A model generated the notes under the pieces. That model was not told where the DNA came from. It saw only the letters and a list, made by a program, of their open reading frames with translations, and made no database searches. Positions 1 to 33,745 of a stretch of DNA of 49,446 bases are shown one piece after another (the stretch's first letter is position 1; each line of letters opens with the position of its first letter). The stretch comes from a virus. The translations under genes were made by a program, and so were the position numbers. Location of the stretch: positions 1 through 49,446 of IMG/VR virus record IMGVR_UViG_3300044675_001660, one strand, 5' to 3'.

Positions 1-684
1 GTGCTTGAGAGAATCATGCAAGGTATAGACGTTCCTAAGGACATCGTTACAGGTCTTGCAAACGTTAAGTACTCAAACGCTGTTCAGATTGACGAGTCAC
101 TTTACAAGGCACACATTGAGCCTTTGATGCTCTTGATTGCAGACGCTCTTACTGTTGTTTACCTACGTCCGTATCTACTTGCTAACGGTTTCCAACCTAG
201 CGAAGTTGACCGCATTGTTGTCTGGTTCGACCCAACTGCTGTTGCAACTCGCAACGACCGTGCACAGGATGCAGACTCGGGTTTCGAGAAGATGGCGATT
301 AGCCTTGAGACTTGGCGTAAGACTCACGGATTCTCTGAGGCAGAGGCCCCTTCTCCAACAGAGTTGGCTCTACGTCTGCTCGTTGAGAAGGGTGTAATCA
401 CGCCTGAACTTACTGAGGCAATGCTTAACGCAGTTGCTCCAGAAGTTATGGCTAAGGTTCGCCAACTTGCTCAAGAGAACTCTGCTGCACCTGTTCCTGA
501 AGGTGTAGAACAAATGCTTCAAGGTGGACCTCCACCTGCTGAGGGTGGAATGCCTCCAGCCGAAGAACCTGTTGCTCCAGCACCAGCAGAGCCTACCGCT
601 CCTGCCCCTGTTGAACAGCCAGCCCCTGCCCAACCTGCTGAACAGGCCCCACCTGCCTTAGCCGAACCTCAAATAAATATCTAG
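1..684 (+). CDS. Portal protein, C-terminal part (5' end outside window)
   Basis: The reading frame is open from the first base, so the GTG at position 1 is probably an internal codon and the gene begins upstream. The first ~90 residues (PKDIVTG, then IDESLYKAHIEPL, ALTVVYLRP and VVWFDPTAV) match the conserved C-terminal half of actinobacteriophage portal proteins, the dodecameric ring through which DNA is packaged and ejected. From about residue 165 the protein becomes a low-complexity Pro/Ala/Glu tail (PAPAEPTAPAPVEQPAPAQ type), probably disordered. Its stop (682-684) overlaps the ribosome binding site of the next gene, so the two are cotranscribed. Portal followed by head genes is the standard order. 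Family assignment comes from recalled motifs, not a database search. Confidence 0.8.
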   Translation: MLERIMQGIDVPKDIVTGLANVKYSNAVQIDESLYKAHIEPLMLLIADALTVVYLRPYLLANGFQPSEVDRIVVWFDPTAVATRNDRAQDADSGFEKMAISLETWRKTHGFSEAEAPSPTELALRLLVEKGVITPELTEAMLNAVAPEVMAKVRQLAQENSAAPVPEGVEQMLQGGPPPAEGGMPPAEEPVAPAPAEPTAPAPVEQPAPAQPAEQAPPALAEPQINI

Positions 685-692
685 GAGATAAA

Positions 693-1196
693 TTGCATAA
701 CTACGACATGTCAGATGGTGGAAAAACCAAAGACGCCTTAGGTGAAAAACTTATGTGTATCCTTTCGGATTACGTTATCTATAAGTTTCTTGCTCAGGGT
801 TACCACTGGAACGTTCGAGGTCCTGAGTTTTATCAGTTCCACAAGTTCTTTGGCAAAATTTACGAAGACGCTGAAAGTGCTATTGACCCAACCGCAGAAG
901 CACTACGTACTCTAGGTTATGACGCCCCCTTCTTGCTAGAAGACTTCTTAAGTCTTACTTGCATTGAAGCACGTCCAGTAGGTTATGACCCTATTGCTAT
1001 GTCTGCTTCTTTGTATGACGCTAATGGAAAAATTCTTAACTACTTGGTTGAAGCGTTTGACATTGCTAACTCATGCCACCAGCAGGGTATTGCAGACTTC
1101 CTAGCAGGAAGAATCAGTCAGCATCAGAAACTGAACTGGCAGATTGGCACAACCATTGGTGCAGATTCAATAGTCGTTTCACCGAACTTAATGTAA
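693..1196 (+). CDS. Dps/ferritin-like protein
   Basis: This 167-residue protein has the signature of Dps (DNA-binding protein from starved cells), a ferritin-fold shell that oxidises and stores iron and protects DNA. Visible ferroxidase residues are H38 (in YHWNVRG), H50, D65 and E69, with the spacing seen in bacterial Dps. The aspartate expected four residues after the second histidine is G54 here, so the iron site may be altered. The start is TTG at 693, chosen because GGAG at 684-687 lies five bases upstream; the in-frame ATG at 708 is too far from it. The gene sits between portal and a giant head-region gene, so the product may be packaged or protect phage DNA. That role is inference. Confidence 0.85.
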   Translation: MHNYDMSDGGKTKDALGEKLMCILSDYVIYKFLAQGYHWNVRGPEFYQFHKFFGKIYEDAESAIDPTAEALRTLGYDAPFLLEDFLSLTCIEARPVGYDPIAMSASLYDANGKILNYLVEAFDIANSCHQQGIADFLAGRISQHQKLNWQIGTTIGADSIVVSPNLM

Positions 1197-1205
1197 GGAA
1201 GTAAG

Positions 1206-4200
1206 TTGTCAGACCTAGATAACGAACAGAACCCGATTAACTGGTTAATCGGGCAACCTGTTGATGCCACCGAGATTGGTGGTGAAACATACACACCAAA
1301 GCAGACTCTTTCTGAGATGATTACAACCATGCTGGCTTCAGCCAACAAGGATGTACCAGAAGCACGTCAGGTACTAAAGAGAACTGCAATGGACGTAGTT
1401 GAGCGTTCACTTTACAAGACCATTGGAGTGTCTGACGTTCACCAACGTGTATTCGCTGCTGAAAGAGAACTTGCCGATTACTTAAACATGGCAATCAACG
1501 GACACCAGCCAGTAGTTGCTGGTGGCCACACCGACCTACTACCAATTGGACACCCACTTTCCACAAACCCTTCTGAGGTATCTCTCAGAACTAGGGCTTT
1601 GTCGGAGAGCGAATGGGTATCTGCTGACCCAAGAATAAGCGAAGAGTTTAGACCTCTCGTTGCGTCAATCTACCTAACCTCGCCAGGTAGCGTTGAACAC
1701 AACTTTTTGGTCGCTCGCTTAGAGTCAGCCGATATCAAGGATGTCCCTAAAGATGTGGTGCTAGCAGTAACTGCTGCTGGTAACCCATTTGGTGGGGGGA
1801 ACTCTTTTTTAGAACGCTCGGCGAGGGCTAAACTCCAACGACGTGACCGTTTAGGTCGCTTTGCCTTTATGGGCGGAGGTGCTAGAGCCTTCGTTAGACT
1901 TGCTAATGGATTTATTCAATCCGTTGTTGGACGCTTCGTAGGCGTTGGCACCGATAGCGACACTTTCGACGTCGAATTTATTGATGACCCAGTATTAGGT
2001 ACTGGCATCTATCGCATGAAGACGCAGAACGTTGCTGGCGTTAGAGCCTTCATTCGCAACTTGCGTGGACTGCTGAAAAACGTAAGACCTAAGTCTGCTA
2101 CATACGCTAGTGGCTATGCTGTAGACGCTAAAGACTTAAAAAAAGTAGACGCACCTAACGGCTGGGAAGTAGATGCTACTCCTCTAAACCCAGACGAGAA
2201 GCACACTAAAAAATTCAACGCTGCTGATGGTTATGGCGTACGTCAATACAACAATGTAAATGACATTCCTTCTTATGAAGAAACTAGCAAGAACAAAGAC
2301 GTTGAAGTTAAAGGCTTGGGTAAGAAAGGTGCAATCGACCCTAAGTACCCTGTTTACGAACTTTACACTGACCCTCTAAATTCTCAAGACAAAGACAAAT
2401 TTGATAGCGACGAACCTACACTAATTGGTTACTACCAGAGTTGGGGTGACCTACAAAGTTCTACCCAAAGATTTGATAAGAAGGCTTACCAAAAAGTAGA
2501 TTCACGTGAAGAGCGTGAGATGTGGGGCGATGCTCCAGATGGTGACCACCCTCAAGGAGTTTTTGAGCAAGTAAACCCTTCAGACGACAAAACTCCTTTT
2601 TCTACTTACAGAAGTAGAAACAATGCCAATGGCAATGGTGGCTATACCGTTAGAAGATTCCAACCAGAAAAGCACGGCGACGCTAAAGCCGATATGGATA
2701 GAGAAGTTGCCGACGGTGCAGAAGTTAGAGGATTTAAGAGTGGCTCTTCGGAAATGGAGCCTGACCAGCCCATATTCGAGGTTACTCGCCAGCCAGCACC
2801 GTGGGAGCGTAACACTGAGCCAGATGTCATTGGATACGCTCAGGACTGGGAAGACGTTCAGGCTATGGCCGAGGCTAGCGAGTTGGCTATGCCTAGAGGA
2901 GAAAATCCTAGACGTAAGGCTATTAAAAAGTTTAAGCAAGAAACTGGCTTAGATTACGTTGACGAGAAAGATGTTGTTCTACCTTCTGACTTTGAAGAAT
3001 ACGAGAACGGCAGACTTTATTACATTCCTAAAGATGTCAACGCTGACAGAGCAAGAATCACTAGAGACTACCGAGGTCAGTATGTTGCAGAGTTCTATGA
3101 CAATGCTGAAGACCAAAAAAATCTTAAACCTTCTAGAACTATCACATCTAGAACTAAAGAAGAAGCACTACTAGATGCAGCAGAACATTTAACTGAAGAA
3201 AAAAGCATTAAGTCTGCTCCAACTCCTGAAGAAAAAGAACGTTCAGAAGCAGAGATTCTTGCTCAGCCAAAACCTACTAGACCAGAAGTTAAAAAGCCTT
3301 CAGAAGAAATTTTCCCTATCCCTGACGTTTCTAATGTCATTGGTGCAGATGGTAAACCAGTAGACCCAGCGTTACTTGAGTGGTACGCAGATGCAGACGG
3401 TATTCGTATTCCTGATGCTAATTTAAAAGACTCTGATAAGACTCCAGAAAACAGACGTATTAGAGATTTAGATAACAACAGAGTTCTAGACGGCAACGGT
3501 AGAGAAGTAGAGTTTGACCCTAAGTATTCTCCTGACGCTGACCCTAGACCTGATGTCCACCCAGACCACGAGGATGGTTTCTGGGACGCTAACGAAGTAA
3601 ATGACAGTGAAGTACAAAGAGATATCACTGACCCTCAGTTGGCTTACGAGGCTCTTTTTGATGGTGGTTTTATTGAGGTTGACCAACGAGTTGCAATAGA
3701 TGCTGTAACTATTGCGATGGAAGATAGAAAGTTTATCGGGCCTGACGACAATGCAATTGGTCGTTCACGTCTTGCTCGTGCTTTGAGCAGTGCTCTGCAA
3801 GGTCTACCTACTTCTCAGGCTAACCGACTAAGACGTGCAATAAATCCAGCGGCTCTAAGCAGAGAACGTGCTCAAGAGTTGCTTGACTTCATCAACAGTA
3901 AGAGTGGAGACCCTCTAACTACAGACGAAATGAAAATGCTCCACCGCAAGTACCGCAACATGGGTGTAGACCTTACAAACATGAAGATGGAAGGTACCAG
4001 CAACTACCTAAACAACAACCTAGGTGCTGAGCGTGGAAAGATGCCTCAACTTTCCACACCAGAAGACCAAGCGGACTTCGAGGCTGCTCTTGGACGTCTT
4101 GGAATTAAGTTTGAAGCCAAAACTATGACTCCAGACCAGTTGACTCCAGTTCAAGCCGAAATGGATATGGGTAACGTTGGTCTAATTAAAACTTCTTGGC

Positions 4201-7200
4201 TAGACCCTGAACTTCGTAAGAAGTTTGGTATGGATGACCAAGTTCTTTACGTTACTCGTGACGGTTATGTTATTGACGGCCACCACCGTTGGGCATCTGC
4301 TCTTCTTGCTCAAATAGATAGTGGCAAGCCTATTGAACTTAAGTGTGTTGTTGTTGACCTAGACCACGAAGACGCTCTTCGTATCTGTAACGAATACAAC
4401 GACCACATTGGTGTAACTCGCCAAACTCTAGGTGCTACTTCTGCTGACGCTAAAGCAACTCCTAAGCGTGAAGTTGATGGCGAAGTTGGTAGAAAAGGCA
4501 ATCCTCCGAAAGACTCTACTCCTCCAGTATCCACGCCTTTAGCCGAACCGCCAGACGAATTACCCGATAGGCAACCAGTAGCGAGACTCCCTGAAGGTGC
4601 ACCTGCACCTCAGTCTCCGCCACCTCTACCTAATTTTACTGAGACCTTACCAGAACCTAAAAAAGCAACAAAAAGAATTCCTACTCCTGTATCTGCAAAG
4701 GCTTTTGTAGATAGGCAGGGTACAGACATTAGAAAGTTTAAAGAGTACGGTACTGGTTTTGTGTTGACCACTCCAGACCCAGTCGGGGGCACTGGAATTG
4801 TACCCACTCCAGAAAAATTAGAAGAGTTCGAGAATTGGCTAGATACTCATAAAGATGCAGACAACGAAGTAAAGAAGCGTATATCTTCTGCAATGGTTGA
4901 AAAGTATGGGCCAAACTGGGCAGAAAAGTTTATTGAAGTAAGTTCTGCTGTAAACAGGAAAAATGAGATTTACGGTGAACTCAGAGCACACATGCGTGAC
5001 CTGTGGGAAAAAAATCTTGGCGGTGCTGGCGAAATAAAAATGAAAATTGCTAGCGACATTCGCAGAGCAGTTCAAAGCGGTGAAATAAAATTCCCTGATA
5101 ATGATGCCGCCATGAGGGAGTTCCGCATACAGCAACTCATTGATGAAACCCTTAGATTAGAGTACGCCAAGTGGGACACGCTGGCTAATGCTGTTGCTGT
5201 CATTAGAGAGAAGTATCCTGATAGCGAATACGCTCGGTTAATAAACGAGGGCTATGAAGTAAAAGCACGTATTGATTTACTGTCAGCAGAAGAGTCTGAG
5301 ATGAATGCAGACTTATCTAAGTTTGCTCAAAGGGAATACAGAAAATATCTTGAAGAGTCTGGCGTTGAAATGTACAGCGGAGATGGCTCAGAAATATTTG
5401 AAGTTTCTGGCACGCTACGTCACTTAGTGCAAAAAGGTTTTCTTGGTAGAGAAAAAGAAGAAACTAAAAATCAAGAAGAAGATGAAGAAACTCTAAGACA
5501 AGTTGAAGTAGCATTTCGCTCTGCTTTAAGTCGCTACCCAAAGTGGATGGTTGACAGGCTTGAAAAAATTATTGCAAAAACTCCTAGCGGTAAACTTCAA
5601 GTTTCTATAAATTACACTGAAGACCCTAATTTTACAAAAAGAGGTTTCTTTCAAATTATTGATGGAAATCTTTATATTCAAATTAGCAAAAATAACAATC
5701 CAACTCACGGGTTACTTGATTTTGAAGAGACCGCTGCTCACGAAATAGGGCACGCTTTGGAGGCAGCGATTCCAGAAATTCGTGCTCTTGAGTGGTCTCT
5801 ACTTACCAGCAGGACTAGAAGATTCGCTGGAGGCGAGGCTAGACCTATTGGCAAACTAGAAAGTGTGGTTCCGGGCCAGCCTAATAGCGACGAACTTGGA
5901 ATTCTAGACGATTTTAGAAACACATACGCTAGCAGGATATACGGACCACTTAACCCTAACTCTTACTACGAAGTCTTTACTATGACACAAGAGCGTATGC
6001 AGGGTGGAGGAACTCACAGAGTAACTAACAAAAAAATCCTAGAAGACGTAAAAAGCGGAAAAATCACCGCAGAACAAGCAATCTTAGGTGACACCGACAC
6101 AACAATGGCTTTGGGAATCATGCTTGACGGCGGAGATTCTGAACTAACTCTTGCTGATGAGCAGGTTAGAAAAGGTGCTGTTCTAGAGGTAGACGGCTGG
6201 TCAAAAAAGGGTAGCCCTGAATTAGTTGATACTGGTTTTGTAGACGAGACACAGAATCTTTCTGACCAAGCGTCTACTAAGAGAAGTAAAAAATCTGAAG
6301 AAATTATTAGTCGTATTGCTGACGTTGGCGATAAGAGAGCAATTGTAAATGAAGATTACGGAGGCTACGTAGATGTTTACCAGAAAGGCCGTTACGACGC
6401 CCCTGACGGTAAAACTTACACAATGTATTTCCGAGAGACTCAGTTTCCTAACGATGATGGAACATTCACGATTAGTGGTGGAGTGGATATCACTGACGGA
6501 ACTGATGATGTGGGAGAGATTTCATACAGTGAAGTTAGAAAAGTGCTTGACTACAAAGGTAACGTCATTTGGGATGAAACTGCATTACCTTTGTGGTATT
6601 CGAAAGACCTTTACGATGTAACTAAGCCTTTCTCTACTATCAAATACGTCGAGGTTGCATCAGAAGCAAGAAGAAAAGGTATCGCTACAGCACTTCTTGA
6701 GTTTGCTCGCAGACACTCTGCCACTCCTATTCACCACTCTCAAGAACTACTAGATGACGGAAGAAACTTTGCCAAGGCAGTTCAAAGTAGCGATGTATTG
6801 ATTGAAGACCTGCCTGTTTTAGAGGGTGACACTTCTGTATCTTCTCCAGATTTGTACGGTGCTCAGTCTGAAAAGGCTAAGCAGATTGAAAGTCGCATAG
6901 TTCCTAGTGATAAAGAACCTGTTGTTAAAAAAACCAAACTTCCAAGTTTTATAAATAACGTCGACCACACAATGGTGATGACTACTACCGATTCTGTCTA
7001 CACAACAGAAAGTGGAGAAAAATTTATAATTCGCCGTGAAGTCGAAGAAGTCGTAAATGACTCTACTGGCGAGGTCACTCAACTTAGAGGCACTGTTTTT
7101 GCCTTCCCAGAGGGTCAGAATATTCCTGACGATATTGATGAAGACAGCGGTTTTGTTTCTCAGATAGATTACGTCGGCGGTAAGAAAGACATATCTACTG

Positions 7201-10200
7201 TTGCAGATGAGTACCGCTCCACCGTTGATGACAGCAAGCCTTTTGCAACTATATATGGAATCGCTACTGACCCAGAGCACCAAAGAAAAGGTTTAGCGAC
7301 CGCACTGCTGTCGGTTGCTAGAAAAGATTCTGCTATGCCTGTCTATCACAGTTCTTTACGAACTATGGATGGGTATCGTTTCTCTCAGGCTATACAAAAT
7401 AGTACTGATGTTCTTGAAGAACTTCCTGATTTAAAAGAGACCCCTGAGACTAAAAAAGTTGCAAGCAGAGTCAAGATTAAAGATGATTTAGAGAAGACAG
7501 AACTAGATAGATTAAATGGTGAAAAAGAGTTTGGCGTAACTAGAACTGCTGAGTACACCGATGAAGATGGAGTTGTCTACAATCTAGTATTCACTTTAGG
7601 TGGAATCGTCGATGAAAACGGAGAAACTGTTGGCTACTACAGGAGAGGCTCTGTACGTGCTTACACTAAAGATAAAAATAGTGAATACATGGATACTGCT
7701 GGTGTTCTTGATTGGGAATTTACTGACAACCTTGGCATGGTTGCACCAGAAGCACAGCCTGATGTTGATTTAACTAAACCTTTTAATTTTATTAGAAGTG
7801 TAGTGGTCTACCCGTCTTACACAAGAAAGGGTCTTGCCACCGCTATGTTGCAGTTTGCAAGAAGCCAAGACGAGCAACCTATTTATCACAGTAGTGTTCG
7901 AACTGCTGAGGGCTATAAATGGTCGACTCAAGTCAAGTCTCCAGACGCTTCTACTGAAGAATTACCTGACAATTTCAGTTCTGGAGACCCTAAGAATTTA
8001 ACTAAAACAGATATCAACTATTTAATTGAATCTTCTCCTGTAACAAAAAACACTGCGACCTTCCAGCAAGGCAAAAAAGGTATTGGAAGTCTGTCTAGAA
8101 ATGGCTACAAAGAAAATTCTCTAGAAGGTTACAAGCCAAACTTTGACGCAGATGGCGACGCTATACATGAAAAAATTTACACTAGAGCGATTGAGTCTGG
8201 TCTATCAGACAAAGACGCTGAAGAACTTGCTACCAAGCAGACTACTGAAATTAGAAACTTTATTCAGCGTAAAAACGACAAATCTAGAATGGCTTACTTA
8301 GTAGAAAAAGCGATTACACCACCAGAAGGTGCTTCAGAGAAGGTAGTGAAAGAGCGTACTCGTTGGGCTAAGATTTGGGATAAAAACACTACTACTGTAA
8401 AAGAAAGAGTCTCTAAAGCACTTGCTACTGGAAGAGTGGTAGAGCCAGTAAGTAAAGAATCTTTTATGGACATAGTAGAGAACAACGGCAAGTTTAATGG
8501 AGTTGGTTTTATTGCCGATGACTTCTCTACTGGTAAATCTGAATCTGAATCTGTTGACAGTATCGGTCAAAAGATGAAAAGCATTCTCAGCATTAAAAAT
8601 AAAAAACACGCTTCAAAAATTAAAGTTGTATTCAAAAACTCTGTTAGAAAAAACACCAAATACACTGTCGGAGATTCCCTAAATTCTGCTTCTATACCTA
8701 GTCCTCTAGATTCTAGAGACGAAGACTCTATGGTTTTGTCTGGCCTTATGGGTAATGCAAATGGTGCTTTTATCTCTATGTCTGGTATGGGTGCTCCTAA
8801 AAATGATGACGCTCAGATTCAAACTTCTACAACTGGTGATTTAGGTCTACCTGACGTCGAGGCAGTGTACGTTTCTGGAGAAGAAGACGCTAGAGAAATT
8901 AGACAGGCTCTAGATGAAAACTTCCCTGACATTGACGTAGTTGATTTGGATGGCAGTGAGTCAGACAGAAAAGACGTCGGTCTTAATTTCTTAAGAAAAA
9001 ACGATGGCCAAATACAGAACAGTCTTGACGAAATTCAAGAAGAGTTGCCGACACCTGACCCAGATTCGCCAGAACGTCAAATGTCTGAAAAGGCAAAGGC
9101 TGTCCGTAAAAACCTAAGTGTAGATACAGTCCCAGAAGTTGTTGCTACTGAAAAAATGTCTTTTGGTGACACAAGGGAGTATCTAGAGGGACGTGGAAGT
9201 TACCTAACTCCTAATGGAGACATGATTGATTTAGTTTTTGAAGAAAAAAGAAATTACAATAGAGAAGGTCAGAAAGAAACTGACACTGTAACTATTACCG
9301 CATTTGACGACAACTACAATTTAGTTGGTTTGCTGGAAGTCAACATGGTTGAGTTTGACACAGACGATAGCGGAATTGAACGTTATTCTCTAAAAGGTAT
9401 TGACGAGGTGGCACATCCAGAAATTTTAGGTAAACAGGACAGTGCCACTCCACTTGCTGAAATCTCTTGGATTAAAGTTGAAGACGACTACCAACGTCAA
9501 GGTATTGGAACTGCATTACTAGAGTTTGCTAGAGATACTTTCCCTATGCCTATCTACCACAGCAATAACTTAAGCCCAGACGGTAGAAAGTACTCTAAAG
9601 CAGTACAGACTTCCGAAAACGTCGAAGAAGACCTTCCTAGTGTAGAAGAGACCACTCCTAGAAAACCTATTCCTCCGCTGGTAGAAGACGAAGCACCTGA
9701 ACCAGAGGCTACTGCTGAAGCGTCCGATAAAGCCAGAATAGTTCGTGAAAGAGCATTAGAGATTGAACCTAAAATCACGGAAGACGTGGCTAAGGTTGCT
9801 AAAGTTTCTGGCGGAGTTCTGAAGAGCCTAGAGAACAGAATTAAGACCACGGGGTCTCTCGCTCGCAAAATTGATAAAGATGCAGTAGAACTTTTTAATG
9901 GCGACCGTGCAGATGCTGCTCTTAGAATCAGCGACGCCGTTCGTTACACTATGGTAACCAGCACCGCTGACTACGTTGCTGCTATTAAACAGGTTAAAGC
10001 AGAATTTTTAGATTTAGGCTATGAAGTACAAAATGAAAAAAACTTCTGGAAGAGCAGTGAATACAAAGGATTTACTTTTAAGTTAGTTTCTCCAGAAGGA
10101 TACGCAGTGGAGTTCCAAATCCACACTGACGAATCTTATGAAATTAAAGACGACTTACACAAGTTGTACAAAGAACTTAGAAAAATTCCAGTAGGCACAA

Positions 10201-13200
10201 ATGTACCTAAGAGAAGGCAACTAAGTTTTGAGTTGGAAAAATTGGCAGACCTTATTCCTGTTCCAGAGGACGAAGAACTATTTCAAGTAGGAAAACTTGT
10301 TCAATACAATCCAGATAAAAAATTAACCAGACTTGGCGATGAATTTGAAGAGTTTGAAAAGCCTGAGCCTCAGAAACCTCAAGCACCACAAACGTCAGAA
10401 ACTTTAACCGAGGAAGATTTACCAGAAACTACCCCATCTACCCCTTTAGTGCAAAAAATTAAAGAGCGTCTAAGAAAACCTTTATCTAAAAATGCTGAAG
10501 AAGATAGACAATTGCTAGAAAAAATGATGGATAACCAGTATGGTGAAAATGCTCCAGAAGAAAAAAAGATTTTAGACGAAAAACTTAATCAACATATAGA
10601 AGATGCCGAACTATCTGTTCGAGTATTTCCAGAGGCATTTGAAAAAATTCTAGAAAGTGGCAAGTTAGAAAATATTTTTGCTCGCTCTAAAAGCGAAATA
10701 GAGGATAAAAAAACCGTGTCATGGGCTAGAGACGAAGCATATATGGGAAGTAGGAGGGCTTGGGAAGAGGCTAACCTTGGAATTTCTGACAATGCTAGTG
10801 CAGACGACAGGCCTATATATCTATCTGCTCACACTCCGAATGAGAGTACCTACGAGGAAGCAAAGAGATACGGAAGTGTGAAAATTATCTTTAAGCCAGA
10901 ATTAAAGAAGCGTTCCACTTTTACAACTGCCGATAGCCTAAATAAATTTAAAATACCGTTTAGATACGGAGAGGCTAACGTAGACAAAATAGACGTTAAT
11001 GAGGCAATTTCTGACGCTAGAAAAATAGGGGTCAAAGTGTCTGACCCGAATTTTAAGCCTTTCTCTACCGAAATTTGGGGGGAAGATGTTTTCAACGATG
11101 ACCCTAAATTTATAGAGGCTCAGGTCATGGGTGGAATCTCTAGAAAAGATATGACTGGCACTCTTGTAGTAGATTTTAGGGAAGAAAACTCTCCTTCAAT
11201 TGAGCAACTACAAAAATGGCAAGATGCTGGATTTGAAATAGTCCTTAAAGATAAAACAGGGGAAACATCTCTACAGTCTTATTTGGAAAACGAGGAAAAG
11301 GCTCAAGCAAAGATTAAAAAAGACCAAGAAGAAAATGCAGACAAGTGGGAAAAGTATCGTAAGGCTGATTTGGCTCAGTTGGAGGCTGACATAAAGAGGC
11401 TTAACTTAACCCCACTAACTGAAAGTGAAAGAGCCGACATACTTTCTGGAAAACTTACTGGCATGACGAATATATTGCAGGAAAAAATTGCAAAGAAGAG
11501 AAGCGAGGACAGCCTCAATGAGTCAGGCTCTAAGCCTATTCAATCACCTACTACTACTACTGAAGAAGATTTGCCTGATAGCAAAGATACATTTGACGTC
11601 GATTTGTGGGGAGACCCTATTCTTGCACCAGTCGAGGGTTCTTTCTACGACGATGATGGCAATTATAAATACGGCCCTAGAGGTAAAAAATCTAAAGAAA
11701 TTTTTAAAAGAATTTTCCCAACTGGCCAAGATATGGACCGAGACGGAGATATGGTCTATACCGCCGACTTTATCGATGAAGAAGGAAATAAATTCAATCT
11801 GATAAACAGGATAGACAGTTACGCTAGCAAGGGAGTAGTTCAGATATATAGCACTGGTGCCTACCCACAAAGGGTCGGAGAAATTATATATTCTGAAGTA
11901 CCTATAAGTAACGACGAAGATGGCTTACTTACTTGGGACAGGAATCAACTTCCGCCTTGGTACCCAGAAGAAAATTACGACATATATAACCCATTTGCAA
12001 CAATCGATATAGCAAGAGTAAGCACTGGTCAGCAAAGACGTGGACTGGCAACAGCCATGCTTGAGTTTGCTAGGTCTACAAACAGTATGCCAATTCACCA
12101 CTCTTACAACTTAAGCGAAATGGGCCAGCAATTTGCTCAAGCGATTCAAAATGCACCTACTTTAGAAATCGAGAATGAAGACCTTCCTAAACTAGACGAG
12201 GTTAAGTCTGTTGCCGAAAGAATCGATTACGGACCTCAGAATCAAGGTGACAGTTTGTTCCAGCAGACCGCTACTTACAAAGCCGAGGACGGCACTGAAT
12301 ACAAGATGGATATGACAGTTTACGTCAACCCAGAGAGTCCTTTTAAAAACAAAACTGCAAATATAGAAATATTACATGAAGGAAAATTTGTTGGACGTTT
12401 GTCTTGGCAAACTGCTTTCAGTTATTTTGAAGATGATGGTGAGCAGGTCTGGCTACCACGCTCAGAGATGAACAGAGTTGCACCTGAATCCATAGACTCT
12501 GTAGACACTTCTAAACCTTTCTCAATTATTGATTCCTTGGCTGTAAGTGAAGACAGTAGGCGTAAAGGTATTGCTACTGCAATGCTTACTTTTGCTAGAG
12601 AAAGTTCAGACGAGCCGATTTACCACAGCCAAGACAGAACCGATGACGGTAAGGCATTCTCTAGAGCCGTACAAAGCCCTGTACTGCTAGAAGACATGGA
12701 TGAATTGCCAGTTAGAGATGAAGTTCCTTTTAGAGACACTCGTCTCAATAGGAGACCTGATAGACGAGCAGTTAGACGATTAGCCAGAAAAGGTCTTAAC
12801 TCTAAGGAAAGAGCAGAGAGTAAGAAGCGAAACAGATTGACAGAGTCCCCTAGCACTATAGGAGACGAGGCAAAGTTAACTCCTACCAGAATTATGGTTG
12901 ACTACGCTGAAGCACTTAGAACAGCAAATCTTGAAAGACTAAATTTCTCTCAAAGAGTTACTGAAGCAATGGATTCTCTAGAAGCGGATGGAATAACTAA
13001 GAAAGACATTGCAGACAGCATACATAACCCTCAGAATCTCGTTCCTTGGGAGGGAAAAATTGATATCTCTAAAGTATTAGTCTTAGATTCTGTTACAGGT
13101 AGAGCCTTGAGCATGTATGAATACTCAAATATGCGTGAAGTTAATGAGCAGGAAGATATTCTTAAGAATAAGCGTGGTAAGAGTAGAGAAGTAACTTTTG

Positions 13201-15887
13201 AAGAAGCAAAAGAAATCTTAAGAAAATATGGTGGTTACGGCAGTGGCAATAGAAGATATGTCCTACTATCAGATACCGAAGTTTCAGTTCCTACTGTTGC
13301 TAGAAAACACATAGAAAAAACATTTAGAGCATTAGATAAGAACCTATCTATTAAGCCAGAAACTTCTCAGCAATTAGAAGAAGAACTTCCTACCTATGAC
13401 TACGAACCAATGAGTTCTAAATCAAGAGAAGTGGCCGAAAGAATAGTAGAAGACCCTTCTAAGTCCCAGACTTGGCCAGATGAGCAAAAAGTATTAAATA
13501 ATGTCGATAATAATGTTGATTATTGGTTGAGACTTTATATGGGTTCTGACTCTATTCTTGATTTCGATGAAACATTCACGCTTGAAGATTACAAGAGATT
13601 AGATGAATACAGGCTTAATCCTCCAGTAACCGAAATAACTGTCTCGGAACGAGAGCACGTCGCTACTTACAAAGCAGTGGGAGGTGGCGATACTTACAAA
13701 CTGACAATGACGGTGAAAGAAATAAAAGACTCTAAAACTGGAAAAGTATTAGCAGTTAGTGGCAGGGGCGAGGCTTCCTCCGAGAAAGATTTCACTAGCG
13801 GTGGAGAATTCTTGTTTGCGTCTCCAAATGTTAATGGAATAGACGAGCAAGGTAATTTCTTATATGACGCTAGATTTATTGCTCGTGAGACAAGAGAGAA
13901 TATAACTAGAGATGATTTGAAAAAACCGTTCGGTTTTGTTACTGGAGTTTACGTTGACGAAGATGTTCAGCGTCAAGGTATAGCCACTGCTCTACTTGAG
14001 TTCGCACGTCAGAAGGCTGGCGTACCAATTTATCACAGTAGCAATAGAAGCGACGAGGGCTACGCTTTCTCTACTGCTGTAAAGTCTCCTCAATTAGTTG
14101 AAGAAGACCTACCACCTCTAGCCGAGGGACAGAGTTCAGAAGGAAGAACACTATCTGAAAAGAGTAGAGAAGTTAAGGCTAGGATTTCTACCAACTCTCC
14201 ACGTCAAGAAGTGCGTAAAGATGGAGATGGCAATCCGATTTATCAGAGTAAGGGAACTTACAAAACCCCATCTGGTGAAGTTTTAAATTTGCTTTTAGAA
14301 GATACCGAAACTACGAGCAAAGAAGACAACATACGTTACATTAACGGTTTTGTTGATATTTCAGATAAAAATTCTAGGGTTCTTGGCAGTTTAAGTTTTG
14401 GAGTACCTTATGACTACATGAACTACCCTAATTCACTTGATTACGACATCGGTGCTGTCGACAGGGATATACACCCAGAAGCCAGCCCAGATAGCCCGTT
14501 TGCGGTGATTGATTTTATCTCGGTATTCCCTACTCGTCAGCGTGAAGGTATTGCCACCGCTATGTTGGAATTTGCTAGAGAAAACTTTAATCTTCCTATC
14601 TACCACAGCACTGATAGAACTGCTCGTGGAAATGCTTTTGCTGATGCTGTCCAGTCTCCTGAAACTTCTGATGAAGAGTTGCCTACTCCTACCGTCGCAT
14701 CTTCAATTGTTTCTGGACGTGACAAGAACATCCAAGAGTTACTGGACACCAACGCAATTGCTAGCATCGAAGACGCAACAAAAATTAAAGAGTACGGTGC
14801 TGGTGTAGGTAATTTAGACATTGGCACCACTATTAGTTTGGGTCTAGGGCAGCATGAAACTCGTTCCGACAAGTTCATGCAACGCCTGTGGGAATTAAAT
14901 TTGCAATACCTTCAAAAATCTCTAGGCATTATTGACTGGAAGGTCGAGCAACAGACTATAGACAAAATGAAGGCTATGGGTCTATCTGATAGGGCATCAA
15001 AGCGTGCAGCAGCAGGTGCCCTACTCGCTGCCAAGGCTTACGCTAAGGTTAAAAACTTTGCTGAGGCTATGAGTAAAATCGCTAAAACTATGGCAGAAGA
15101 ATTCCCAGAGGACCGTTGGTTCGCTGGATACTATAAGAGAGCATTAGTAACTAGAGAAGTGCTAAAAGACAAACTTAAAACAGCAGTGCCAGTAATTTCT
15201 GCTGACTTTGACTCTGCTCTTGGAATTATTTCAGATAAGAGATTTAAAACTCAGTGGGAGACTGGAAGTAGCAATGGGCTGTACGAGCCTTCTACACGTG
15301 AAAAGCGAGAGTTTGGACTACTAGCAGTAGACCCTAAAACTCCTAAAAGCAAGAGACCAATTTATGGTTTTATGGCCACGGATGATGATGGCAAGACTCC
15401 TATGGCTAAGCCTCACAATATGGACCTATTTGCTGTAAACAATAGAGCCATAAGTCAATATGGAGATGTCAGATTTGTTCTAAAGCCAGAAACAAGGGAA
15501 AGAACTACTTTCACAATGCAAGACTCTCTAGACGTTATAGCACTGCCACAGCCACTTTCCGACAACCCGACCGACGAGCAGATAGATATGGCTGGTTTTT
15601 GGCAGAACGTTACTGACTCGCATGACGGTTTCTTTAGAGAGCCTTACGTCGAGGCTCAGGTTTCAGGTGGAGTTAGTATGGAAGATGTTGAAAGGATAGT
15701 GGTATCAGTTCCTTATTATACTGACTACCCAGAGGCACAGGCTAAGTTCTTAAAGCGAAAAGTAGATACATTAAGAGCAGAATTAGATGCAGCGGGATAT
15801 GAAAATATTCAAATAACAACCGTTACAGAGACTCCTAGCGAGAGTTATCAAGACGAGGCTATGAATATCAGCGGAATTCCACTATAG
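1206..15887 (+). CDS. Giant modular polyvalent protein (4,893 aa) with eight GNAT modules
   Basis: One uninterrupted frame, TTG start with AAGGAAG just upstream. Domains in order: N-terminal region with RDRLGRF (213-219) and a beta-rich stretch; a duplicated motif with core IGY-x-Q-x-W (about 406 and 542); ParB-like domain (945-1075, DGHHRWAS at 1024); zinc-peptidase-like segment (HEIGH at 1512-1516, possible third ligand E1589); GNAT modules at 1694-1870, 1887-2074, 2082-2254, 2626-2811, 3493-3661, 3664-3835, 4069-4303 and 4315-4493; RelA/SpoT-like domain (2839-3020); three copies of an unassigned domain (2359-2585, 3099-3335, 4662-4845). (E/D)(E/D)LP linkers separate domains. The architecture matches phage polyvalent proteins, thought to enter the host with DNA and counter defences. 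No canonical MuF fold was recognised although the gene sits in the minor-head-protein slot. Substrates of the GNAT modules are unknown. Function is inferred from domain content only. Confidence 0.8.
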   Translation: MSDLDNEQNPINWLIGQPVDATEIGGETYTPKQTLSEMITTMLASANKDVPEARQVLKRTAMDVVERSLYKTIGVSDVHQRVFAAERELADYLNMAINGHQPVVAGGHTDLLPIGHPLSTNPSEVSLRTRALSESEWVSADPRISEEFRPLVASIYLTSPGSVEHNFLVARLESADIKDVPKDVVLAVTAAGNPFGGGNSFLERSARAKLQRRDRLGRFAFMGGGARAFVRLANGFIQSVVGRFVGVGTDSDTFDVEFIDDPVLGTGIYRMKTQNVAGVRAFIRNLRGLLKNVRPKSATYASGYAVDAKDLKKVDAPNGWEVDATPLNPDEKHTKKFNAADGYGVRQYNNVNDIPSYEETSKNKDVEVKGLGKKGAIDPKYPVYELYTDPLNSQDKDKFDSDEPTLIGYYQSWGDLQSSTQRFDKKAYQKVDSREEREMWGDAPDGDHPQGVFEQVNPSDDKTPFSTYRSRNNANGNGGYTVRRFQPEKHGDAKADMDREVADGAEVRGFKSGSSEMEPDQPIFEVTRQPAPWERNTEPDVIGYAQDWEDVQAMAEASELAMPRGENPRRKAIKKFKQETGLDYVDEKDVVLPSDFEEYENGRLYYIPKDVNADRARITRDYRGQYVAEFYDNAEDQKNLKPSRTITSRTKEEALLDAAEHLTEEKSIKSAPTPEEKERSEAEILAQPKPTRPEVKKPSEEIFPIPDVSNVIGADGKPVDPALLEWYADADGIRIPDANLKDSDKTPENRRIRDLDNNRVLDGNGREVEFDPKYSPDADPRPDVHPDHEDGFWDANEVNDSEVQRDITDPQLAYEALFDGGFIEVDQRVAIDAVTIAMEDRKFIGPDDNAIGRSRLARALSSALQGLPTSQANRLRRAINPAALSRERAQELLDFINSKSGDPLTTDEMKMLHRKYRNMGVDLTNMKMEGTSNYLNNNLGAERGKMPQLSTPEDQADFEAALGRLGIKFEAKTMTPDQLTPVQAEMDMGNVGLIKTSWLDPELRKKFGMDDQVLYVTRDGYVIDGHHRWASALLAQIDSGKPIELKCVVVDLDHEDALRICNEYNDHIGVTRQTLGATSADAKATPKREVDGEVGRKGNPPKDSTPPVSTPLAEPPDELPDRQPVARLPEGAPAPQSPPPLPNFTETLPEPKKATKRIPTPVSAKAFVDRQGTDIRKFKEYGTGFVLTTPDPVGGTGIVPTPEKLEEFENWLDTHKDADNEVKKRISSAMVEKYGPNWAEKFIEVSSAVNRKNEIYGELRAHMRDLWEKNLGGAGEIKMKIASDIRRAVQSGEIKFPDNDAAMREFRIQQLIDETLRLEYAKWDTLANAVAVIREKYPDSEYARLINEGYEVKARIDLLSAEESEMNADLSKFAQREYRKYLEESGVEMYSGDGSEIFEVSGTLRHLVQKGFLGREKEETKNQEEDEETLRQVEVAFRSALSRYPKWMVDRLEKIIAKTPSGKLQVSINYTEDPNFTKRGFFQIIDGNLYIQISKNNNPTHGLLDFEETAAHEIGHALEAAIPEIRALEWSLLTSRTRRFAGGEARPIGKLESVVPGQPNSDELGILDDFRNTYASRIYGPLNPNSYYEVFTMTQERMQGGGTHRVTNKKILEDVKSGKITAEQAILGDTDTTMALGIMLDGGDSELTLADEQVRKGAVLEVDGWSKKGSPELVDTGFVDETQNLSDQASTKRSKKSEEIISRIADVGDKRAIVNEDYGGYVDVYQKGRYDAPDGKTYTMYFRETQFPNDDGTFTISGGVDITDGTDDVGEISYSEVRKVLDYKGNVIWDETALPLWYSKDLYDVTKPFSTIKYVEVASEARRKGIATALLEFARRHSATPIHHSQELLDDGRNFAKAVQSSDVLIEDLPVLEGDTSVSSPDLYGAQSEKAKQIESRIVPSDKEPVVKKTKLPSFINNVDHTMVMTTTDSVYTTESGEKFIIRREVEEVVNDSTGEVTQLRGTVFAFPEGQNIPDDIDEDSGFVSQIDYVGGKKDISTVADEYRSTVDDSKPFATIYGIATDPEHQRKGLATALLSVARKDSAMPVYHSSLRTMDGYRFSQAIQNSTDVLEELPDLKETPETKKVASRVKIKDDLEKTELDRLNGEKEFGVTRTAEYTDEDGVVYNLVFTLGGIVDENGETVGYYRRGSVRAYTKDKNSEYMDTAGVLDWEFTDNLGMVAPEAQPDVDLTKPFNFIRSVVVYPSYTRKGLATAMLQFARSQDEQPIYHSSVRTAEGYKWSTQVKSPDASTEELPDNFSSGDPKNLTKTDINYLIESSPVTKNTATFQQGKKGIGSLSRNGYKENSLEGYKPNFDADGDAIHEKIYTRAIESGLSDKDAEELATKQTTEIRNFIQRKNDKSRMAYLVEKAITPPEGASEKVVKERTRWAKIWDKNTTTVKERVSKALATGRVVEPVSKESFMDIVENNGKFNGVGFIADDFSTGKSESESVDSIGQKMKSILSIKNKKHASKIKVVFKNSVRKNTKYTVGDSLNSASIPSPLDSRDEDSMVLSGLMGNANGAFISMSGMGAPKNDDAQIQTSTTGDLGLPDVEAVYVSGEEDAREIRQALDENFPDIDVVDLDGSESDRKDVGLNFLRKNDGQIQNSLDEIQEELPTPDPDSPERQMSEKAKAVRKNLSVDTVPEVVATEKMSFGDTREYLEGRGSYLTPNGDMIDLVFEEKRNYNREGQKETDTVTITAFDDNYNLVGLLEVNMVEFDTDDSGIERYSLKGIDEVAHPEILGKQDSATPLAEISWIKVEDDYQRQGIGTALLEFARDTFPMPIYHSNNLSPDGRKYSKAVQTSENVEEDLPSVEETTPRKPIPPLVEDEAPEPEATAEASDKARIVRERALEIEPKITEDVAKVAKVSGGVLKSLENRIKTTGSLARKIDKDAVELFNGDRADAALRISDAVRYTMVTSTADYVAAIKQVKAEFLDLGYEVQNEKNFWKSSEYKGFTFKLVSPEGYAVEFQIHTDESYEIKDDLHKLYKELRKIPVGTNVPKRRQLSFELEKLADLIPVPEDEELFQVGKLVQYNPDKKLTRLGDEFEEFEKPEPQKPQAPQTSETLTEEDLPETTPSTPLVQKIKERLRKPLSKNAEEDRQLLEKMMDNQYGENAPEEKKILDEKLNQHIEDAELSVRVFPEAFEKILESGKLENIFARSKSEIEDKKTVSWARDEAYMGSRRAWEEANLGISDNASADDRPIYLSAHTPNESTYEEAKRYGSVKIIFKPELKKRSTFTTADSLNKFKIPFRYGEANVDKIDVNEAISDARKIGVKVSDPNFKPFSTEIWGEDVFNDDPKFIEAQVMGGISRKDMTGTLVVDFREENSPSIEQLQKWQDAGFEIVLKDKTGETSLQSYLENEEKAQAKIKKDQEENADKWEKYRKADLAQLEADIKRLNLTPLTESERADILSGKLTGMTNILQEKIAKKRSEDSLNESGSKPIQSPTTTTEEDLPDSKDTFDVDLWGDPILAPVEGSFYDDDGNYKYGPRGKKSKEIFKRIFPTGQDMDRDGDMVYTADFIDEEGNKFNLINRIDSYASKGVVQIYSTGAYPQRVGEIIYSEVPISNDEDGLLTWDRNQLPPWYPEENYDIYNPFATIDIARVSTGQQRRGLATAMLEFARSTNSMPIHHSYNLSEMGQQFAQAIQNAPTLEIENEDLPKLDEVKSVAERIDYGPQNQGDSLFQQTATYKAEDGTEYKMDMTVYVNPESPFKNKTANIEILHEGKFVGRLSWQTAFSYFEDDGEQVWLPRSEMNRVAPESIDSVDTSKPFSIIDSLAVSEDSRRKGIATAMLTFARESSDEPIYHSQDRTDDGKAFSRAVQSPVLLEDMDELPVRDEVPFRDTRLNRRPDRRAVRRLARKGLNSKERAESKKRNRLTESPSTIGDEAKLTPTRIMVDYAEALRTANLERLNFSQRVTEAMDSLEADGITKKDIADSIHNPQNLVPWEGKIDISKVLVLDSVTGRALSMYEYSNMREVNEQEDILKNKRGKSREVTFEEAKEILRKYGGYGSGNRRYVLLSDTEVSVPTVARKHIEKTFRALDKNLSIKPETSQQLEEELPTYDYEPMSSKSREVAERIVEDPSKSQTWPDEQKVLNNVDNNVDYWLRLYMGSDSILDFDETFTLEDYKRLDEYRLNPPVTEITVSEREHVATYKAVGGGDTYKLTMTVKEIKDSKTGKVLAVSGRGEASSEKDFTSGGEFLFASPNVNGIDEQGNFLYDARFIARETRENITRDDLKKPFGFVTGVYVDEDVQRQGIATALLEFARQKAGVPIYHSSNRSDEGYAFSTAVKSPQLVEEDLPPLAEGQSSEGRTLSEKSREVKARISTNSPRQEVRKDGDGNPIYQSKGTYKTPSGEVLNLLLEDTETTSKEDNIRYINGFVDISDKNSRVLGSLSFGVPYDYMNYPNSLDYDIGAVDRDIHPEASPDSPFAVIDFISVFPTRQREGIATAMLEFARENFNLPIYHSTDRTARGNAFADAVQSPETSDEELPTPTVASSIVSGRDKNIQELLDTNAIASIEDATKIKEYGAGVGNLDIGTTISLGLGQHETRSDKFMQRLWELNLQYLQKSLGIIDWKVEQQTIDKMKAMGLSDRASKRAAAGALLAAKAYAKVKNFAEAMSKIAKTMAEEFPEDRWFAGYYKRALVTREVLKDKLKTAVPVISADFDSALGIISDKRFKTQWETGSSNGLYEPSTREKREFGLLAVDPKTPKSKRPIYGFMATDDDGKTPMAKPHNMDLFAVNNRAISQYGDVRFVLKPETRERTTFTMQDSLDVIALPQPLSDNPTDEQIDMAGFWQNVTDSHDGFFREPYVEAQVSGGVSMEDVERIVVSVPYYTDYPEAQAKFLKRKVDTLRAELDAAGYENIQITTVTETPSESYQDEAMNISGIPL
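6285..14684 (+). repeat. Eight-copy GNAT module repeat within the giant protein
   Basis: Protein-level repeats at nt 6285-6815, 6865-7427, 7450-7967, 9082-9638, 11683-12188, 12195-12710, 13411-14114 and 14150-14684. Each begins with a helix of the type SxKSREVxxRI, then ~100 variable beta-rich residues, then KPF and the acetyl-CoA loop (RRKGIATALLEFAR, QRQGIGTALLEFAR, QREGIATAMLEFAR and similar), then P-I-Y-H-S with a following G and F, and ends near (E/D)(E/D)LP. The R/Q-x-x-G-x-A/G loop is the classic GNAT motif A. Codon choice differs between copies, so these are old, diverged duplications. Copies 1-3 are contiguous; the others are separated by different domains or paired (5-6, 7-8). Confidence 0.85.
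8280..15740 (+). repeat. Three-copy unassigned domain (xTFTxxDSL / EAQV type)
   Basis: Copies at about nt 8280-8960, 10500-11210 and 15190-15740. All share a beta-strand followed by a T-F/Y-T-x-x-D-S-L element (NTKYTVGDSLN, RSTFTTADSLN, RTTFTMQDSLD). Copies 2 and 3 also share RPIY and, near the end, EAQV followed by GG and S (IEAQVMGGIS, VEAQVSGGVS). I recall this combination from C-termini of actinophage head proteins, where its function is not established. An ADP-ribosyltransferase-like fold is one possibility but I cannot identify the catalytic triad with confidence. Copy 1 has lost the EAQV element (IQTSTTG instead) and may be degenerate. Confidence 0.6.
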
Positions 15888-28363: not shown

Positions 28364-31300
28364 ATGGAACAAGACTCTAACTTATCTACTCCTGTATATC
28401 TTGGTAGACAGGACAATTTAGCCTTATTTATTAGTGGAGAGATGGCTGTAGTTGTAGATGCCAATCTCGGTATGCTCATAGAATTTGGTACCGAAGAAGA
28501 TATATTAAACTCCAAGGAGTGGGCACTATCCAGCGAGCCAGTGTCTGAAGAATTAGCAGACTTTGCTGAGCACGCTTTGGAGAACATTCAGCCATCTAAA
28601 ACTGACGCTTTAACTGCTTCGGCACGTTTATACACCATACCAACTGGAGTCCGTTCCGAAGCAAAAAAGGCTTTAGAGTGGCGTAAAGAACACAAGCGTG
28701 GTGGCACCCCTGTCGGTCTAAACACTGCTCGCACTCTTGCTAAGGGTGGACAGATTGGTATCGAAAAAGTACGTCACATCGCAAAATACTTCCCAAGACA
28801 CGAAGTCGACAAGAAGGGCAAAGGCTGGAAGCCGGGACAAGATAACTTCCCTTCTAACGGACGAATTGCTTGGGCACTCTGGGGCGGAGACGCCGCTTGG
28901 CGTTGGGCTAAGGCAATCGTTGAACGTGAAAACAAAAAGCCAATTAGGGCTGATGGTTTTTATGAAGCATACGGTGCTGAGTTAAATCCATTTATTAAGG
29001 CTACCGAAATAGATGAGACCGCTGCTCCAGAGTTCCTAGCAAGAGTACGCATGGACGGCTCTGGCATTGACCGCATCTACAAGATTGACATTAGTGGTCA
29101 CGTCTACGTTTGGGATGATGGTACTTGGGACGACCTAGGCCATATTGAGGGAGACGTTTGGACTTATGACAAAGCCCTAGACGACCCTTACGACACTTGT
29201 GAAAAATCTCACGTTCAGATTGACCCAGACTCTGCTATCTCAATTTGTGCCAGAATGCAGACTAATCCTTTTAAAAATATCTCTATCGGTGATATTGAAA
29301 AAGAAGAAGCAGAAATGTTTGCTGAGTCAGACTTGTCTGAAGAATTTGAATTTATTGATTCTGTAGTCACTGCCGCTGCTGGTGACGGAGTTTCACTAAA
29401 GAGTACAGTAAAAAATGACGGGGTATACACTCCTGAAGAACGTTCAAAAAATGCCTCAAGTCAGGTTAGAGACGGCAGTGGTCAGTTTGCTAAGCAAGGT
29501 GGTCGAGTTGTAGTTGGTGGTGACAGGGAAAACGGTCGTGGTGTAATCACCAGAGTAAACCCAGACAAGACATTGAGCGTAGAATTAGACAACGGTAAGA
29601 CTATAAACGTTGACGCAAAATCAACTAAAGACGAGCAGACTGAACTTTCTAAACCTCAGAGTTTGCTACAGAAAAGAGTTGTAGCGGATGATTTTGAAAA
29701 ACCTCTAGACGTTTCTGGAATCTTAGGTGAGCCTAGGTCTCCTCAGGGTACTAAAGGTACTTTGCCTGGCACTCTTCCTGCTTTAACTTCAGACGATTTA
29801 CACTCTCTCCTCAAAGACTGGGATGGTTGGGTCGCTGGTCAACGTGCAGAGTTTAAGCGTTTTGAAAAACCAGAAATTTACAAGTTTGGCCGTAAGAACT
29901 ATCCGGGCAAAAAAATTATTGACGATATGCCTAACTACGCACTTCTTGGCAATGACCTGACCAGCCTTGCTAATAAAGAAGATGGGGAAAAGGCATGGGA
30001 GGACGACTCTGAGTTTGAAGACGAAGAGCAAAAAGACAGCGTACATCCGCTACTTAAGAAGTGGAAGCAAAAGCAAGAAGACCCCTCTAAAGTAAAGGTT
30101 GACTCTCCGCTTTGGGCAAAGCCTGTTGTCGCTGCTGCTGGCCCACAACCGTCTGACGTAGCACCTGTTTACTTAGCGATTGTTGCACCAGATGACCCTC
30201 GTGCAGTTCTTGACTTAATTAGCATTGTTCCAGCAAGTGCAACTTCAACTCAGCCTATGACTTACGTTCGCCGTGAGAAGAAATGGCAACGTGAACCTAA
30301 GTTTCTAAATGATTTGAAATCAGCCACTCCTCCACCAGTTGTCCCTCTCGACCCTGAAGTTTTGAATGATGTTTTGATTCAGGTTGACGGCCTTCAGGCT
30401 TCTGGAATTAATGCTTTGGACCACACTCTTATGGTTCTTTGGGGACCTAGCCCAAGTGCTATGAAATTTGCTTTGGAAGAGGCTTTTGAGCAAGATTTAG
30501 AAGCACTTTTATCTGCTGGCGGTGCAGACCGAAACAGGGGAAATGCAGAGAAATTAAGACGTTATTGGACTAAAGGTAAGGGTGCTGCCAAGATTCGCTG
30601 GGGCACTCCGGGTGACTGGAAGCGTTGCGTTCGTTACTTAAGTAAGTACATGGGTGTCCGTGCGAAGGGCTACTGTCAACTTCGTCACAAGGATGCAACA
30701 GGTGTTTACACTGGAAGCAAACTAAATCCAGGAAGAGAGAACTCTACAAACGAGTTCATCATGGAAGAAGTGTGGGCTAAGAATATTGGCAAACCTACTG
30801 TCATAACTGACGAAGATATGTTGATGCCTCTACCTAAAATTATGCGTGACAGTGATGATATCTATGACCACCACTGGACTCCAGAAGACGACATTGTTTT
30901 TGAACTAAAAGAACTAGCCAAATGTAGCGATGAAGAATACGCTTTGGTTGCTGGTGCTCGCCCACCTAGTGGATTTAACATCAATAGAAACCGTAGAAAC
31001 GCTGAGAAGTTGCGTCGCTATTGGACTGTAGGTAAGGGTGCTGCGAAGATTCGTTGGAACAGCGGTGGAGACTGGACTAGATGCGTTAAGTATTTATCAA
31101 AGTACATCGGTATGCGTTCTAAGGGCTACTGTGCTCTACGTCACAAAGAGATGACTGGGATGTGGACTGGTGACAGAGAACACCTTCAAATGTATGGAAG
31201 AAACTTTTCTGGTAAAAACGTTTTCAGCACCGAGGTAATTAACAGTAGTGAAAAGGTTGTAGAACTTAGTCAACTAATTGCTAAGGCTAATATGGCTAAG

Positions 31301-33634: not shown

Positions 33635-33741
33635 TAAAATAAAACTAGGTGGAGTGCCTTGCGTGTCCGTACGTAAAGTCCCTTTACCTTGTACCGAAAG
33701 CGTATAGGTGAAATCCATCTATACAAACTGTCCTTAGGAGG
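33635..33741 (+). promoter_or_regulatory. Capsid gene leader region
   Basis: The 135 bases before the capsid start contain a TAAAAT box (33635-33640, preceded by TG), a second strong ribosome binding site AGGTGGAG (33647-33654), a small inverted repeat GTAAAG-TCC-CTTTAC (33673-33687) and the capsid Shine-Dalgarno AGGAGG (33736-33741). The upstream SD could serve a 14-codon peptide from GTG 33663 to the stop at 33705-33707. No -35 element is evident. A regulated leader is possible for the most highly expressed virion gene. Confidence 0.4.
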
Positions 33742-33745
33742 AACA

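Follow-up and report, generated by a model that had tools for sequence, protein, structure and literature searches.

A giant phage head-region protein with eight GNAT modules and a phage-specific punctuation peptide: a probable virion-cargo polyvalent effector

What is a single open reading frame of 4,893 codons, rich in acetyltransferase-like modules, doing among the head genes of a phage? The window analysed here is the entire IMG/VR record IMGVR_UViG_3300044675_001660 (49,446 bases), whose 5' edge lies inside the portal gene. An initial annotation of the same letters had described, in the protein that we call P0001, eight GNAT modules sharing a start helix and an end, with a diversified region before the acetyl-CoA loop, and had suggested that the array is delivered with the DNA and could acetylate several host targets. 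The frame of P0001 is uninterrupted and opens with a TTG start codon, with an AGGAAG-like ribosome site immediately 5' (Table 1). In our reading, P0001 is probably a polyvalent effector that a large, actinobacteriophage-like phage carries as virion cargo, with modules that would act on the host. It is a mixed effector set that extends beyond the GNATs, and its most unusual feature is a short peptide that punctuates the chain; the initial annotation had missed both.

Table 1. Features of the window (relatives are given by their contig handles, L006 being phage DSL-LC01)
Feature	Position	Strand	Evidence or remark
Portal protein, C-terminal part	1..684	+	phrog_776 E 8.3e-36; 74% identity to L012 portal
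Ferritin-like (Dps-like) protein	693..1196	+	PF00210 E 5.6e-13
P0001, giant protein, 4,893 aa, probable polyvalent effector	1206..15887	+	one open frame
N-terminal domain, RDRLGRF motif; candidate head-targeting domain	1791..2048	+	blastp: P0002 E 5e-7, L006 E 4e-42
ParB-like segment (GHHRWAS)	4251..4400	+	phrog_1033 E 7e-4, weak
13 [DE][DE]LP in P0001, 12 bases each	within 4554..14684	+	at 4554, 6804, 7416, 7956, 9039, 9627, 10413, 11565, 12177, 12699, 13380, 14103, 14673
Zincin-like metallopeptidase motif HEIGH	5736..5760	+	sequence; HExxH kept in L037, L005, L011
GNAT module 1, loop RRKGIATA	6282..6803	+	i-Evalue 5e-55; orthologue in L005, L011
GNAT module 2, loop QRKGLATA	6864..7418	+	i-Evalue 6.9e-42
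GNAT module 3, loop TRKGLATA, altered at the first pocket residue	7437..7961	+	i-Evalue 8.4e-45
W1, divergent ART/DUF3626-like module	8403..9005	+	18% identity to W3 in alignment; similar module in L005
GNAT module 4, loop QRQGIGTA	9081..9632	+	i-Evalue 1.4e-53; orthologue L005 m5
Alarmone-synthetase-like (RelA/SpoT SYNTH) module	9720..10301	+	phmmer PDB 8vx3 E 1.6e-13; phrog_7625 E 6.8e-16
W2, ART/DUF3626-like module	10488..11255	+	PF12294 E 8e-7
GNAT module 5, loop QRRGLATA	11682..12179	+	i-Evalue 1.4e-48
GNAT module 6, loop RRKGIATA	12195..12704	+	AlphaFold2 model; PDB matches GNATs
GNAT module 7, loop QRQGIATA	13584..14108	+	i-Evalue 2.5e-42
GNAT module 8, loop QREGIATA	14154..14678	+	i-Evalue 1.6e-50
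W3, C-terminal ART/DUF3626-like module	14970..15845	+	PF12294 E 3.4e-7
P0002, second giant protein, 3,533 aa	16817..27418	+	four [DE][DE]LP, at 17459, 17960, 20348, 25706
Degenerate GNAT-like segment in P0002	21002..21178	+	E 0.0037; present in L037 homologue too
Zeta-toxin kinase-like domain, P0002 C-terminus	26435..26833	+	PF06414 E 4.8e-11
P0003, structural protein containing head-maturation protease	28364..33610	+	phrog_859 E 7.6e-98; phrog_18402 E 6.5e-60
Major capsid protein	33689..35743	+	phrog_777 E 2.9e-77; best relative Actinomycetia phage DSL-LC01

The count of eight holds. A profile of the eight cores returns exactly eight domains from the one polypeptide, at 102–116 bits each; a 183-position model of the full-length module gives i-Evalues of 7e-42 to 5e-55 across the copies, and Pfam GNAT families match P0001 repeatedly, with whole-protein E-values down to 1.6e-31. 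The acetyl-CoA loop, between β4 and α3, is recognisable in every copy and its Q/R-x-x-G-x-G/A pattern is intact in seven of the eight, the sole exception being copy 3, in which Thr replaces Gln/Arg at loop position 1. The shared end, too, is borne out: all eight GNATs close on P[IV][YH]HS...G..[FYW], with [DE][DE]LP following 26–29 residues downstream. The common start helix is a looser affair: four GNAT copies show its pattern, as does the stretch ahead of one other module, and elsewhere the fit is less close.

In the usual GNAT topology, an α1–α2 pair lies in the N-terminal half and β6–β7 come at the end. Module 6 was modelled with AlphaFold2 together with 21 aligned modules, the assignment of the other seven GNATs resting on alignment, so that the structure prediction proposed earlier for each module speaks here to module 6. 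Its model (pLDDT 90.5, pTM 0.86) finds GNATs as its best PDB matches: the 12 fold matches of lowest E, among them aminoglycoside acetyltransferases, YlbP and RimI, are all of this superfamily (probability 0.94–1.00, E about 0.007–0.03). Against the ten best of these, the TM-score is 0.34–0.37 of the query, the match lying chiefly in the CoA half; the scores are low because the N-terminal half is divergent; the model shows it as successive strands, with no α1–α2 pair evident. Nothing resembling β6–β7 lies beyond the last helix either, and we therefore call module 6 a divergent, rather than textbook, GNAT. At the level of profiles, the eight-core profile retrieved no PDB chain at E 0.01; a longer GNAT profile matched only GNATs, across the β4–α3 segment, the segment in which the P0001 modules are alike to the Pfam ESCO1/2-type GNAT (PF13880) and to RimI-like GNATs. 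By loop and fold, the modules belong to the GNAT superfamily, with acetyl-CoA binding and transfer as their predicted activity.

Between and around the GNATs lie effector domains of other kinds. The alarmone module (residues 2839–3032) stays under the Pfam RelA_SpoT cut-off, and its assignment to the SYNTH class rests on the 8vx3 match together with two catalytic-type residues that are kept, the Asp in SDAVRYT and the Glu in EFQIHT. W1, W2 and W3 align together; the model of W3 is of low confidence (pLDDT 64.8), and the 11 PDB chains that match it best (SopF, DarT and Tpt1) all belong to the ART superfamily. For the zincin-like HEIGH motif, a Pfam scan yielded no zincin match. The RDRLGRF motif of the N-terminal domain is present in P0001, P0002 and P0003 only, while the domain itself also occurs in relatives. 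PADLOC assigned no defence-system family to P0001 or P0002.

Such a mixture of unrelated effector domains in one chain (GNAT, alarmone-synthetase-like and ART-like, where at least two are asked of a polyvalent protein), encoded with adjoining portal, protease and capsid genes, places P0001 beside the polyvalent proteins that Iyer et al. (2017; PMC5512222) described in phages and in conjugative elements. These, too, are giant multidomain proteins encoded with portal–terminase head genes, and they are predicted to be packaged and injected. They hold 2–15 domains, mixing GNAT, ART, zincin, RelA/SpoT and ParB, all kinds for which P0001 has at least a candidate. Unlike them, P0001 combines eight GNATs per chain with a phage-specific punctuation peptide. 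Both the GNAT number and the peptide are new as far as our limited literature search shows; the word “linker” has no occurrence in the text of PMC5512222. To call the copy number extraordinary, as had been done, is nonetheless to overlook that polyvalent proteins bearing GNATs, and another bearing an ART in 12 copies, had been published by 2017 (PMC5512222). As for the placement between portal and protease, both do flank P0001, but P0002 intervenes before the protease-containing gene. A ferritin/Dps-like gene sits between the portal gene and P0001, and the phages L012 and L045 have it there too.

Other known systems share parts of this arrangement. In MuF polymorphic toxins and Apk2 alarmone synthetases (PMC5576092; PMC12226406), effector enzymes are joined to a head protein encoded next to the portal; the alarmone module of the relative L037 matches PHROGs named head morphogenesis and minor head protein. 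Since neither Pfam nor PHROGs detects a MuF domain in P0001, we leave it out of the MuF toxins. The exported alarmone synthetase SaEAS (PDB 8vx3; PMC12691689) is matched over 176 residues, with the Asp/Glu pair kept in P0001; unlike SaEAS, the P0001 module is embedded in a phage giant protein. By predicted function, the GNATs may be likened to the Rac acetyltransferase of phiKMV-like phages, a phage GNAT that acts on the host and sets a precedent for RNA polymerase as a target, though Rac is a single stand-alone protein (PMC7552054).

The capsid protein of the window is closest to that of Actinomycetia phage DSL-LC01, followed by those of large Microbacterium, Arthrobacter and Gordonia phages, and in DSL-LC01, Microbacterium phage Pumpernickel and Arthrobacter phage Mimi a giant protein likewise lies after the portal, either directly or behind small genes. 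A search for the repeat in other phages had been proposed, and profile scans of IMG/VR do find related GNAT arrays. Among relatives with capsid proteins 56–83% identical to that of the window, L037 has six GNAT copies, L012 four, and L014, L045 and L046 three each; these arrays, recurring at three to six copies, further temper the claim of an extraordinary number. The incomplete contig L005 has the N-terminal region of P0001 and at least five GNATs, and L040, which has no capsid match to the window, reaches eight as four plus four in two adjacent ORFs (L040:6720-14722). DSL-LC01 itself (L006) has none by profile, and single-protein IMG/VR scans with modules 5–6, module 8 and the alarmone module gave no close relatives. 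In tblastn searches of a phage collection with three GNAT arrays, cultured phages gave matches only in single-GNAT genes. One related GNAT is gp70 of Rhodococcus phage E3, whose record labels it a structural protein, and a weak GNAT-like match (i-Evalue 1e-4) lies in gp16, the ejectosome transglycosylase of the T7-like phage pO103 (L033:3490-8028). Two side observations belong here. The first GNAT ORF of L040, a high-GC phage, also matches a head-maturation-protease PHROG, and 3' of the fifth GNAT of L005 a segment (L005:18998-20092) resembles by eye an R-S-E ADP-ribosyltransferase, Pfam giving a weak deaminase-like match only.

Where its gene lies, which domains it holds and how its relatives are annotated, as structural or ejected proteins, lead us to read P0001 as a head-carried, delivered effector. 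What we infer of its packaging, injection and acetylation targets can be put as a sequence of steps. P0001 would be built into the prohead alongside the portal and protease and would enter the host together with the phage DNA; its modules would then have an early effect on several targets in the host, with the GNATs acetylating different substrates by way of their diversified N-terminal halves. A phage-specific partner, likely a protease, may cut the chain at its punctuation peptides into single effectors, a step for which we would put the chances a little below even.

The punctuation itself is readily described. P0001 carries its 13 [DE][DE]LP where 0.6 would be expected, and nearly all modules from the ParB-like segment onward have one at their boundary; besides the GNATs, W1, W2 and the alarmone module are each followed by it. 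Within the window, 17 occur in the 8,426 aa of the two giants vs none in the 7,088 aa of other proteins, the maximum in shuffled sequences being 4. The motifs were derived from these same sequences, and such statistics are therefore descriptive and provide no independent confirmation. The independent part of the pattern is the recurrence of a phage-specific mark in phage after phage: EDLG in L037, mostly E[DE]FP-like peptides in L005, PSQNRE in L014, L045 and L046, and GPSPKEE in L012, with [DE][DE]LG counted 14 times in L037, PSPKEE 19 times in the L012 phage and QNRE 11 times in the L045 phage. In L037, L012 and L045, both giant proteins bear one common mark per phage, which the analysed portal, capsid and protease genes lack, except for one DDLG in the protease-containing gene of L037. 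Even L012 and L014 have different marks, with 74–92% identity between their orthologous GNAT halves. No strong mark of this kind is present in Pumpernickel or Mimi. Within the marks of the window, Leu is encoded by TTA, TTG, CTT, CTA and CTG. That the mark differs between relatives in both giants, and that its codons vary, points to the peptide as what is selected.

Within a phage the mark is constant and common to two genes, yet from phage to phage an altogether different peptide takes its place; a trans-acting partner is the best explanation. We suggest, with not quite even confidence and from sequence patterns, that the peptide is read by a phage-specific partner of this kind, most likely a protease that would divide the chain into individual effectors. 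The head-maturation protease is one candidate cutter and the putative zincin of P0001, known from its motif, another; zincins of polyvalent proteins have been proposed to process those proteins (PMC5512222). Among related giant phages, prohead-protease motifs do drift, with AXE in SPN3US and SXE in phiKZ (PMC5694885), and this suits processing rather than docking, although neither the major capsid protein nor the protease carries the mark, as both might if a maturation-protease site were shared. If the mark is instead left uncut, it could serve, copy after copy, to dock the cargo chain to capsid, scaffold or portal, or to order its threading through the tail; its essential confinement to two giants per phage, and its joint switching in both, would be in keeping with this. 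By analogy, the chain might then be ejected whole in the manner of the N4 virion RNA polymerase, which is packaged unprocessed (PMC5512222). Docking and whole-chain ejection alike seem to us rather unlikely, and we prefer processing. Far less probable is that the linkers are DNA repeats left as scars of recombination, which let modules shuffle and have no function as peptide. Module order and copy number do change fast between relatives, as this would predict, but the codons at the mark vary freely while the peptide is constant, so that DNA homogenisation is no explanation and a scar origin is set aside. Building on processing, we would venture, a shade more tentatively, that effector cargo is carried here as polyproteins: two giants with phage-specific marks (EDLP/EELP, EDLG, E[DE]FP, PSQNRE, GPSPKEE) and a partner co-evolving in trans. 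On the same tentative footing, acetyltransferases, ADP-ribosyltransferases and alarmone synthetases would be freed singly, with modules swappable between marks.

Whether the GNAT copies are enzymes at all, and whether they are delivered, may be weighed against two further alternatives. The region before the loop does vary between copies, as first described, mean paralogue identity across the eight being 0.20 before the loop vs 0.44 after it. That 20% identity in the substrate half, the loss of the usual Gln/Arg in copy 3 and the degenerate GNAT-like segment in P0002 could all indicate mostly non-catalytic copies, a structural or binding head filler kept for bulk while its substrate half decays. 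We consider this improbable: window modules 1 and 4 retain 0.45–0.50 identity to their L005 orthologues in the substrate half (0.56 in the CoA half), the loop is kept in seven copies, and three orthologous modules shared by L012, L014, L045 and L046 have dN/dS of 0 to 0.31 in both halves. In the window's own modules dS is saturated, and purifying selection can therefore be measured in the relatives only. Because the substrate half differs between copies yet is kept between orthologues, the copies look specialised rather than decayed. In a tree, modules 1 and 4 pair with their L005 orthologues, and three modules of the sister group each form their own clade across phages; the sequences thus fit copies that diverged long ago and may have been retained for different jobs. 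It is similarly improbable that P0001 works undelivered in the producing cell, during assembly or late infection. Its presence in the virion is a prediction, which leaves this reading some room, but three things speak for P0001 as delivered cargo: its gene lies in the head module, its relatives include proteins annotated as structural or ejected, and polyvalent and MuF effectors set a precedent (PMC5512222).

Should the preferred account of cargo and processing hold, a whole set of enzymes, each specialised in modifying proteins, would be delivered by one virion gene, and the peptide that punctuates them would show where effector chains divide and lead to what recognises them. The eight paralogous GNATs, with their separate substrate halves, would likewise provide a ready panel for finding the targets of phage acetylation. 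The co-located giants of the cultured phages Pumpernickel and Mimi make packaging and processing testable, the GNAT array itself excepted. Further along the window, a tail protein (45529-48840) combines an SPP1 Dit-like domain with an E1_FCCH match.
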